Notes under the pieces: generated by a model
Told to the model about the DNA's origin: nothing
Database searches by the model: none
What the model saw: only the letters and a program-made list of their open reading frames with translations
NCBI RefSeq assembly: GCF_016756745.1
Contig: NZ_JAESIH010000059.1
Location: forward strand, 66,149 to 130,148
From: Aminivibrio sp.
Lineage (GTDB): Bacteria; Synergistota; Synergistia; Synergistales; Aminobacteriaceae
Length of the DNA: 64,000 nt
Direction of reading: 5' to 3'
Position numbers and translations under genes: made by a program
Shown: piece after piece, positions 39,178 through 42,080 of the stretch
Layout: the number at the start of each line of letters is the position of its first letter
How positions within the stretch are numbered: position 1 is the first letter of the stretch

Positions 39178-39458
39178 CCTAAATCCGCACCTCAGCGGGG
39201 AGTGTCACCGGAACTCGCTTGGGCGGGGGTGCGGATTGTCGTTCGTGACAACTGCCCGGGCGAGTCCCGCGGCTCCCTGCGTTCGCCGGCTGCCTGCCTG
39301 TGAAACCGACATCCCTGCCGGTTTCTCTCACCTCAGGCGCCCTCCCCCAGGGGCCTCTCCGCAAAGAGCGCGGAGCGAGATCTCTTCGCCCCTGGGGAGG
39401 GCGAATTCACCTTATACCCGGCGACACTCCCTCTGCCTGAAAAATGTGCGGATTTAGG
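39178..39458 (+). repeat. Dispersed TIR repeat, copy G (281 bp, full-length)
   Basis: Ends CCTAAATCCGCA and TGCGGATTTAGG. Internal inverted repeats form several hairpins, among them ACTCGCTTGGGCGGG/CTGCCCGGGCGAGT, GAAACCGACATCCCTGCCGGTTTC and the CCCTCCCCCAGGGG/CCCCTGGGGAGGG pair. It lies between the divergent TRAP promoter and the serA promoter, which starts 15 nt after its right end. There is no ORF with a ribosome site. Confidence 0.92.
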
Positions 39459-39472
39459 TTCAGAAAAAGCTA

Positions 39473-39501
39473 TTGACATTGATAGGTTGTGCTGATATAA
39501 A
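39473..39501 (+). promoter_or_regulatory. Strong sigma-70-type promoter of the serA operon
   Basis: TTGACA (39473-39478), a 17-nt spacer and TATAAA (39496-39501). Transcription would start near 39508, about 25 nt before the leader-peptide ATG. Confidence 0.8.
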
Positions 39502-39532
39502 GTGAACAACTTTTTTCGGGGAGCTGCCGCTT

Positions 39533-39655
39533 ATGGATAATGCACGTCTTTTCACAGGCATGGGTACCGGGTCATCTTCCTCCTCTTCCGGCTGGTCCGG
39601 AAGGGCTGGTCTTCCCGTGCCGGCGGGGAAGAGACCGCAGCCCGAGACAGAATAG
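39533..39655 (+). CDS. Serine-rich leader peptide of the serA attenuator
   Basis: A 40-codon ORF, ATG 39533 to TAG 39653-39655, with GGGGAG about 9 nt upstream. After MDNARLFTGMGTG come six consecutive Ser codons (TCA TCT TCC TCC TCT TCC, 39572-39589), then Gly-Trp and a seventh Ser codon. It lies between a strong promoter and a terminator just before the serine-biosynthesis gene serA. That is the arrangement of classical ribosome-mediated attenuators (his, trp, leu), with the run matching the pathway product. Ribosome stalling at low Ser-tRNA would favour read-through (inference). Confidence 0.82.
   Translation: MDNARLFTGMGTGSSSSSSGWSGRAGLPVPAGKRPQPETE
39585..39603 (+). promoter_or_regulatory. 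Leader hairpin overlapping the serine codons
   Basis: CTTCCGG (39585-39591) pairs with CCGGAAG (39597-39603) around a 5-nt loop. Its right arm, CCGGAAGG, is also fully complementary to CCTTCCGG (39708-39715) in the terminator. This offers an alternative antiterminator pairing when the left arm is covered by a ribosome stalled in the Ser run. Confidence 0.6.
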
Positions 39656-39688
39656 AGCGGAAAAACAGCGGGAAATTTCGCAACCATA

Positions 39689-39731
39689 GGGGCCGGAGGG
39701 GAACATGCCTTCCGGTCCCTTTTTCTTTTTC
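39689..39731 (+). terminator. Attenuator terminator before serA
   Basis: GGGGCCGGAGGG (39689-39700) pairs with CCTTCCGGTCCC (39708-39719) around a 7-nt loop, followed at once by TTTTTCTTTTT. It lies 34 nt after the leader-peptide stop and about 70 nt before serA. Confidence 0.85.
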
Positions 39732-39801
39732 CGGGAGGATTGCGATCCCGCAGTCCCCACGGGGCGTTCCGGAACAGGTGAAAAAGGAAGGAGAATGAAA
39801 A

Positions 39802-41445
39802 ATGAAAGTGCTCGTGACGGATACCGTATCGGAAGCGGGGCTTGGGCTGCTCCGGAAGGAAAAGGACCTCCTGGTGGAGGTCAGAACCGGCCTCACCAGG
39901 GAAGAGCTGCTTGAGGCGGTGGCCGATGCCGACGGCATGATGACCCGCAGCGGCACTCCCCTGGACGCCGAAGTCCTCGGGGCGGCAAAGAAGCTCCGGG
40001 CAGTGGCCAGGGCCGGTGTGGGCGTGGACAACATCGACCTCGCTGCTGCAAGCCGCCGGGGAATAGTGGTGATCAACGCCCCCACGGGGAACACCCTCGC
40101 AGCCACGGAGCACACTCTGGCCATGATGCTCTCCCTTGTCCGGAAGGTTCCCCAGGCGTGGAATTCAGTTGCGTCGGGCGAATGGAAGCGGAGCCGGTTC
40201 ATGGGCATGCAGCTCTCGGGGAAACGGCTATTGGTCATTGGGCTGGGACGGATCGGGACCCAGGTGGCCCTCCGGTGCCGGGCCTTCGGCATGGAGGTGT
40301 CCGCCTACGACCCCTACATATCGAAGGAGAAAGCGGACCGCGCCGGGGCACAGCTCCTGGACGACCTCGCCGGGGCCCTCTCCCTCGCCGACGTGGTCAC
40401 CCTCCATGTGCCCCTCACCGCAGAGACCAGGAAGCTGCTCGACGCTTCTGTGCTTCGGGCCTGCAAACGGGGGGCTTTTCTGGTGAATTGCGCTCGGGGC
40501 GGCCTGGTGGACGAGGATGCCGTGGCCGCAGGGGTGCGCTCCGGCCTTCTTTCAGGCGCAGCCTTCGACGTGTTCGACGGCGAACCCGTGCGGGCTGACC
40601 ATCCTCTCCTCGCCCCGGACCTCCGGGAGAAAGTCATCCTGACTCCCCACATCGGGGCCAACACGGAAGAGGCCCAGTCCGCCGTGGCGGTGATCGCCGC
40701 CTCCAACCTCGCCGCCGCCCTCCTGGGGAGGCCCTATGAGCACGCGGTGAATCTTCCCTTCTCGGAACAGCTTCTCAGCGACGGGCGGAGGACCTATCTC
40801 TCCCTCGCCCGCAAAATGGGGTATCTCGCCGCCCACCTCCTTCGGGAGCCGGTGAAGGGGATCCGGGTCACCCTCCGGGGCCCGCTCTTCCCGGGAGGGG
40901 ACGATCCCATCTGTTTCGAGGTGCCCTACCACTACTCCCCCTTTACCGTGGCGGGACTCAAGGGCATGCTCGAGGTTTCCCACGGCCCGGAGGTGAACTA
41001 CATGTCCGCTCCCCTCCTGGCTTCCGACAGGGGAATCGCTGTGGAGGAGATCCGGGCGGAGGGAGGCACCTATAAAAACCTCCTGGAAGTGACCATCGGG
41101 GCCGCCGGCTCCCGGGAAGAAGTAACGGTGGCAGGGACCGTCACCGAGGAAGGCAGGCAGCGGGTGGTGAACCTGAACGGCTACTGGATCGAGTTCGTCC
41201 CCGAGGGAACGGTGCTCCTGTTCAGCAACCACGACCGCCCCGGGGTCATCGGGAAGGTGGGGACCATCCTCGGCGAGGCGGGATCCAACATAGCCAACTT
41301 CGCCCTGGGGCGGAAAAACGGCAGCGGCCTCGCCGTGGGAGCCCTCCAGATTGACAGCGACATCCCGCCGAAGGTTATCGAGACCTTCAAGGCCGACGCG
41401 GACCTTCTCTGGGCCGTGAAGGTGAACTTCTCGGAGGCCCTGTGA
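39802..41445 (+). CDS. serA: D-3-phosphoglycerate dehydrogenase
   Basis: A 547-residue type I PGDH. The N-terminal catalytic domain flanks an NAD-binding Rossmann fold with VIGLGRIGTQ (about residue 147). NCARGG carries the catalytic Arg and TPHIGANTEEAQ the catalytic His. An ASB-type domain (about residues 315-460) and a C-terminal ACT domain (LLFSNHDRPGVIGKVGTIL) follow; ACT domains mediate serine feedback. It oxidises 3-phosphoglycerate to 3-phosphohydroxypyruvate in serine synthesis. GGAAGGAG precedes the ATG. The stop overlaps the next start (ATGATG region, 41442-41445). Confidence 0.95.
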   Translation: MKVLVTDTVSEAGLGLLRKEKDLLVEVRTGLTREELLEAVADADGMMTRSGTPLDAEVLGAAKKLRAVARAGVGVDNIDLAAASRRGIVVINAPTGNTLAATEHTLAMMLSLVRKVPQAWNSVASGEWKRSRFMGMQLSGKRLLVIGLGRIGTQVALRCRAFGMEVSAYDPYISKEKADRAGAQLLDDLAGALSLADVVTLHVPLTAETRKLLDASVLRACKRGAFLVNCARGGLVDEDAVAAGVRSGLLSGAAFDVFDGEPVRADHPLLAPDLREKVILTPHIGANTEEAQSAVAVIAASNLAAALLGRPYEHAVNLPFSEQLLSDGRRTYLSLARKMGYLAAHLLREPVKGIRVTLRGPLFPGGDDPICFEVPYHYSPFTVAGLKGMLEVSHGPEVNYMSAPLLASDRGIAVEEIRAEGGTYKNLLEVTIGAAGSREEVTVAGTVTEEGRQRVVNLNGYWIEFVPEGTVLLFSNHDRPGVIGKVGTILGEAGSNIANFALGRKNGSGLAVGALQIDSDIPPKVIETFKADADLLWAVKVNFSEAL

Positions 41446-42080
41446 TGAAGCGTATCTTTCTTGTGCGGCACGGGGAAACGGACTGGAACAGGGAAGGACG
41501 GTTCCAGGGGCAGATGGACATCCCGCTGAACCGGACGGGCCTGGGCCAGGCCCAGGCTGTCGCTGAGGCGCTGAAGGACGTTCCCCTGGACAGGATCGTG
41601 GCGAGCCCTCTTTCCAGAACCAGGGAGACCGCCCGCCCCCTGGCGGAGCTGACGGGCCTGCCGGTGGAGATGAACGATGGGCTCGTCGAAATAGGACACG
41701 GCCTGTGGGAAGGGCGCACCGCCGGTGAAGTGGAGGCGGAATGGCCGGGAATGCTCGCGGCCTGGCACGGACATCCCGAGCTATTGACCATGCCCGGCGG
41801 GGAGAACCTGGCGGACGTGCGGGACCGCGCCTGGCCGGCCTTCCTGCGGACGGTCGAGGGAGAGGGAGACTCAGTGGTGATCGTCTCTCATGACGCAGTG
41901 CTCAAGGTTCTCCTCTGCCGGATCTTCGACAGCCCTCTCTCCAGCTTCTGGCGGTTCCAGCTCGCCAACGGCAGCATTACCATTCTCGAACTGGGCCGCC
42001 ACGGGTGGAGGGTTCCCCTGATGGGAGAGGCCGGACATCTGGGCAGCGTCTTCCGCCGGGTGGAGCAGACGGCATTGTAA
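41442..42080 (+). CDS. Histidine phosphatase family protein, probable metal-independent phosphoserine phosphatase
   Basis: A 212-residue dPGM-like phosphatase. The phospho-acceptor His is in FLVRHGETDWN (residues about 5-15), followed by SPLSRTRETA, the EIGHGLWEG Glu and the late VSHDAVLKVLL His. Members range from phosphoglycerate mutase to phosphatases. Here it overlaps serA by 4 nt behind a serine-coded attenuator. That strongly suggests a phosphoserine phosphatase of the PspA/iPSP type, completing the last step of serine synthesis (inference from context). The middle step (SerC) is not evident nearby. Confidence 0.85.
   Translation: MMKRIFLVRHGETDWNREGRFQGQMDIPLNRTGLGQAQAVAEALKDVPLDRIVASPLSRTRETARPLAELTGLPVEMNDGLVEIGHGLWEGRTAGEVEAEWPGMLAAWHGHPELLTMPGGENLADVRDRAWPAFLRTVEGEGDSVVIVSHDAVLKVLLCRIFDSPLSSFWRFQLANGSITILELGRHGWRVPLMGEAGHLGSVFRRVEQTAL

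Follow-up and report, generated by a model that had tools for sequence, protein, structure and literature searches.

The window, as we call the whole stretch of 64,000 nucleotides analysed here, carries a gene for phosphoglycerate dehydrogenase, serA, preceded by a promoter, a short serine-rich open reading frame (ORF), hairpins and an intrinsic terminator (Table 1). An earlier note on this DNA, made from its letters alone, had described a promoter, a 40-codon ORF with a ribosome site, a run of Ser codons, a hairpin, a terminator with a T-run and serA, and each of these elements was found where that note had placed it. The Ser density of the leader region was equalled in none of 100 dinucleotide shuffles. 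The genome is one of Synergistaceae, the family label carried by two close relatives (L013 and L014).

Table 1. Elements of the serA leader and the adjoining genes in the window
Feature	Positions	Strand	Evidence and remarks
Sigma-70-type promoter, TTGACA-17-TATAAA	39473-39501	+	Sequence, 11 of 12 consensus matches; conserved in relatives; TTGACA at 39473-39478, TATAAA at 39496-39501, spacer 17 nt
GGGGAG, probable ribosome-binding site of the leader ORF	39518-39523	+	Sequence; kept in two same-genus leaders; 9 nt to the leader ATG (39533)
Leader peptide ORF, 40 codons	39533-39655	+	Encodes MDNARLFTGMGTGSSSSSSGWSGRAGLPVPAGKRPQPETE; relatives keep the Ser and Gly codons, with synonymous changes
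Six consecutive Ser codons (TCA TCT TCC TCC TCT TCC), predicted stall site	39572-39589	+	Sequence; seventh Ser codon at 39596-39598
Hairpin CTTCCGG / CCGGAAG, loop CTGGT, beginning inside the Ser run	39585-39603	+	Folds; alignment of group A leaders; left arm doubles as predicted antiterminator arm
Predicted antiterminator arm CUUCCGGCU	39585-39593	+	Partner GGCCGGAGG at 39691-39699, predicted for a ribosome on the first Ser codon and a transcript that still lacks the 3' arm of the terminator; fold of 39585-39704
Stable hairpin in the 3' part of the leader ORF	39603-39643	+	Folds
Intrinsic terminator, 13 pairs	39688-39720	+	Arms 39688-39700 (5') and 39708-39720 (3'); followed by TTTTCTTTT (T-run), reaching 39729
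serA, phosphoglycerate dehydrogenase, regulated gene	39802-41445	+	TIGR01327, 559.8 bits against a cut-off of 454
Histidine-phosphatase-superfamily gene	41442-42080	+	Overlaps the serA stop codon

The histidine-phosphatase-superfamily gene that follows serA is probably cotranscribed with it. The best matches of this gene are alpha-ribazole phosphatase and phosphoserine phosphatase PspA, both under the cut-off; its product is possibly a phosphoserine phosphatase and may catalyse the final step in making serine.

On the other side of the leader, between divergent TRAP-transporter genes and the promoter region, lies a palindromic element of about 93 bp (CGCCCTCCCCCAGGGGC...GCCCCTGGGGAGGGCG, positions 39318-39411). 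This element is one of about 40 copies in the genome that are 81-100% identical, and belongs to an interspersed REP- or MITE-like repeat.

Recurrence of the leader across Synergistales

Regions 5' of serA were sampled from Synergistota genomes, in which serA was present in 88 of the 188 searched, and the comparison set consisted of 78 regions from 39 genera, located 5' of serA or of an aminotransferase-serA operon. Of these 78 leader regions, 51 contain a small ORF with five or more Ser in ten residues, as opposed to 39 of 303 control tiles (13%) from the same loci. The enrichment of Ser reached a shuffle p of at most 0.05 in 25 of the 39 genera and fell short of this level in the remaining 14. 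Across the small ORFs of all 39 genera, Ser stands well ahead of every other amino acid in enrichment (4.76 per 10 residues observed, 2.73 after shuffling, t 6.2), followed by Cys (t 3.3), Pro (2.9) and Gly (2.6). The surrounding elements recur as well: a terminator-like hairpin of -13 kcal/mol or better precedes the first gene in 65 of the 78 regions, and most of the related leaders contain a promoter, called by matches to the consensus, of the form TTGAC(N)-17/18-TATAA(A/G), about 40-125 nt 5' of the Ser ORF. The shuffles, and the reappearance of the leader arrangement 5' of the same operon in many Synergistales genera, show that it is more than chance.

Comparison of window positions 39656-39801 with positions 2374-2463 of a related locus (L117) exposed the absence of an aminotransferase gene from the window. 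In most relatives, serA is preceded by a class-V aminotransferase gene and the leader sits 5' of the latter; the order in a genome of the same genus (G002) is leader, terminator, aminotransferase, serA, and that in the window's genome and in G001 is leader, terminator, serA. No close copy of the aminotransferase was found in the window's genome or in G001, where the best paralogs are about 30% identical. The earlier note had named serA as the target of regulation, which fits the window; in most relatives, the predicted controlled unit is the class-V aminotransferase-serA operon, not serA alone.

The Ser leader is missing in several genera (for example, g12, g19, g34, g38, g39, g46 and g49), and none was found in the other order of the phylum (g60-g62; four loci, L189-L192). 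Among 72 serA loci outside Synergistota, mainly from Firmicutes and archaea, Ser-rich frames are scattered at varying positions and were judged by eye to be noise. One Synergistota locus (L168) has kept the promoter and the terminator 350 nt before the aminotransferase gene and is missing the Ser-rich ORF, and a second locus from the same genus (L185) has neither terminator nor Ser ORF. This pattern is consistent with loss of the proposed attenuator in that genus, L168 being a possible case of decay. A leader that keeps the terminator after the Ser-rich ORF is gone is the kind of counter-evidence envisaged in the earlier note, and it was noticed in one genome only, the one that contains L168. 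At another locus (L120), short units repeated in tandem (TTTAGGCCTCTTATTTAATTCAGATAGGCC...) take the usual place of the leader, about 300 nt before the aminotransferase gene.

Alternative pairing and selection on leader codons

A leader segment and the 5' arm of the terminator pair more strongly than they do in shuffled leaders (mean z -1.43 across 27 genera), and more so when the 12 nt before the arm are included (mean z -1.65, t -8.0, 24 of the 27 genera negative); t for the 5'-arm pairing ranges from -6.6 to -8. The calculated cost of freeing the 5' arm is 10.6 kcal/mol with a ribosome on the first Ser codon, which is above that in shuffles (t 6.8), and 3.5 kcal/mol with a ribosome at the stop codon. 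In many genera, the end of the antiterminator segment is close to the ORF stop codon, and a ribosome terminating there would cover the segment. The earlier note had proposed a different antiterminator, formed by CCGGAAGG and the 3' arm of the terminator (CCTTCCGG); this pairing shows no excess across genera (mean z +0.43), and it is the 5' arm to which the data point.

In seven genera (g35, g36, g37, g47, g48, g51 and g52), the helix extends up to 14 bp and joins CCGGUCCC-GAAACG with CGUUUC-(A)-GGGACCGG. One column pair is compensatory: seven sequences have CG and seven have UA, with a matching change in the terminator. The pairing is retained through changes on both sides, and this covariation, seen outside the window's own group, comes from few positions and from related sequences that are not independent. 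In the comparison of related leaders that the earlier note had called for, a Ser-rich ORF recurs across Synergistales and the stems show compensatory changes. Taken across the family, these comparisons support a mutually exclusive antiterminator that would employ the 5' arm.

The leaders of the window's own group behave differently in several respects. Here the antiterminator arm coincides with the 3' end of the Ser run and is nearly invariant, so that no covariation comes from this group, and the ORF stop codon lies farther from the arm than in other groups. Within the group, the antiterminator is significantly stronger than shuffles in the same-genus leader L117 (p 0.02), comes near to this in L194 (p 0.06) and is no stronger than shuffles in the window (p 0.19). 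Folding the leader, as the earlier note had suggested, gave a divided answer: the full-length minimum free energy fold of the window leader keeps the terminator at every ribosome position; because of this, transcripts ending before the 3' arm were folded instead, and the antiterminator does form in the fold from 39585 to 39704. Given the full-length fold and the p of 0.19, the antiterminator model for the window relies on co-transcriptional kinetics.

At the level of the peptide, the synonymous share of codon changes is 48% for Ser and 45% for Gly, compared with 16-29% for Ala, Pro, Leu, Val and Thr, a large contrast in pairwise comparisons that are not independent. Such synonymous change at Ser and Gly codons indicates that the peptide sequence is under selection. 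TCN makes up 86% of the Ser codons in the leaders, compared with 76% in the adjacent aminotransferase genes (p 0.002), and the TCN runs of the Synergistales leaders also serve RNA pairing. In Bacillus subtilis, the Ser codons that are sensitive to starvation are TCN, according to one report (PMC3862929).

Predicted mechanism and competing readings

The earlier note had interpreted the locus as a serine-specific, ribosome-mediated attenuator acting on serA, and this reading gains from the enrichment of Ser, the synonymous change at Ser codons, the conservation of terminator and promoter, and the compensated antiterminator. The pathway of the serA product makes the very amino acid that would be sensed, which also counts for a serine attenuator. 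We consider it highly probable that the leader controls serine biosynthesis by ribosome-mediated transcription attenuation, and we infer leader translation, stalling, termination in the cell and a response to serine as follows. RNA polymerase would start at about 39508, with a ribosome trailing it along the leader ORF. Given ample charged Ser-tRNA, this ribosome would pass the Ser codons and mask or disrupt the downstream leader segment, so that the terminator would form and transcription would end before serA. When charged Ser-tRNA is scarce, the ribosome would wait at the first Ser codons, the downstream segment would pair with the 5' arm of the terminator before the 3' arm exists, and the polymerase, with the 5' arm captured, would continue into serA and the next gene.

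Serine may not be the only amino acid to which such a leader responds. Cys, Gly and Trp all derive from serine, and the thr and ilv leaders of Escherichia coli each read several amino acids. The Synergistales leaders could likewise sense how well the cell is supplied with the members of the serine family, namely Ser, Gly, Cys and perhaps Trp, and a ribosome stalled on a Gly or Cys codon next to the Ser run would then relieve termination as well; this would extend the serine attenuator without contradicting it, and we regard it as possible rather than probable. Near the Ser cluster, in 27 genera, Gly rises to 25.9% from 8.8% in shuffles (t 7.8), Cys to 8.9% from 2.8% (t 5.8) and, weakly, Trp to 4.1% from 1.8% (t 2.7); motifs such as GIGCGSSCSSSGSS, GCGSCSLGSSSSW and CGSCGGSCSRSWSSS recur, and synonymous change is as frequent at Gly codons as at Ser codons. 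However, the GGN, TGY and TGG codons could be held in place by RNA pairing through the CCGG-rich arms, synonymous change at Cys codons is weak (16%), the leader in the window has no Cys, and Ala is mildly enriched too (t 2.7). An attenuator throughout Synergistales that combines the charging signals of several tRNAs (those for Ser, Gly, Cys and perhaps Trp), and controls the first steps of serine synthesis, is offered as a tentative proposal.

The promoter, the ribosome site and the conservation at the amino acid level would also suit a Ser-rich ORF that encodes a functional small protein, with a terminator that merely tunes basal expression. We find this very improbable: between groups, the N-termini, C-termini and lengths of the ORFs vary freely and the Ser/Gly cluster alone persists, the ORF is linked to the serine operon, and the mutually exclusive antiterminator is conserved.

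Likewise very improbable is control of serA by a Ser T-box or another metabolite-binding riboswitch, with the Ser ORF as an incidental feature, although serA of Firmicutes is under Ser T-boxes (RF00230; PMC8002221) and a T-box precedes serA in a Clostridia relative (L026). The T-box resembles the serine attenuator in its target, in the Ser-tRNA charging signal and in being based on termination; it differs in binding the tRNA directly, without translation. The T-box search came up empty in the window and in four Synergistales leaders (L117, L128, L144 and L164), no Rfam family reached the gathering score in the window, nothing credible appeared at a relaxed threshold, and the leader codons are under selection. 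A chance Ser run beside an ordinary terminator, without any regulation, is the least likely reading of all: the six-TCN pattern does occur elsewhere in the genome (26 overlapping matches versus 12 for a reversed control pattern), but many genera show the arrangement in front of the same operon, together with the alternative antiterminator.

Relation to known regulatory systems

Classical leader-peptide attenuators control the his, trp, leu, ilv, phe and thr operons, a short list of amino acids, and in these the 5' arm of the terminator has its alternative partner in a leader segment. The serine attenuator proposed here shares with them a promoter, a short ORF in which codons for the pathway product abound, an intrinsic terminator, a biosynthetic operon as the target and a predicted stall-dependent antiterminator that employs the 5' arm. 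It departs from them in that serine would be sensed, the target is serA or aminotransferase-serA, and the hosts are Synergistales; similarity in sequence is not expected.

Cysteine leader peptides, namely uORFC-8-2 before cysS (PMC8632094) and those of the cys operons of Actinobacteria (PMC1262725), likewise consist of a short ORF with regulatory codons, and uORFC-8-2 comes with a terminator, as the serA leader does. They differ from the serine leaders in that their regulatory codons are Cys codons and in preceding other genes in other phyla, and the mycobacterial ones have no terminator hairpin. The alpha-proteobacterial serC element (RF00517; PMC1273637) is similar in being a leader element before a serC-serA operon; in contrast, it comprises two short stems that are thought to block translation initiation, with no peptide or terminator described, and this family had no Rfam match in the window.

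The earlier note had surmised that a serine attenuator is not a textbook case, and we found no serine leader-peptide attenuator in Rfam or in the main texts of the open literature searched. Serine goes unmentioned in the main text of three attenuator surveys (PMC2965389, PMC1262725 and PMC8632094) and in that of Stav et al. 2019 (PMC6429828), who screened the Synergistota genome of Thermovirga lienii. Priority for a serine attenuator cannot be claimed with certainty.

A serine version of the leader-peptide attenuator, conserved across an order in which little is known of regulation, would lengthen the list of amino acids that are sensed in this manner. The same gene, serA, would then be controlled by tRNA-binding T-boxes in Firmicutes and by ribosome stalling in Synergistales. 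The demand for serine feeds the supply of glycine, cysteine, tryptophan and one-carbon units, and if the Gly and Cys codons matter too, a single leader peptide would report the demand for the whole serine family.
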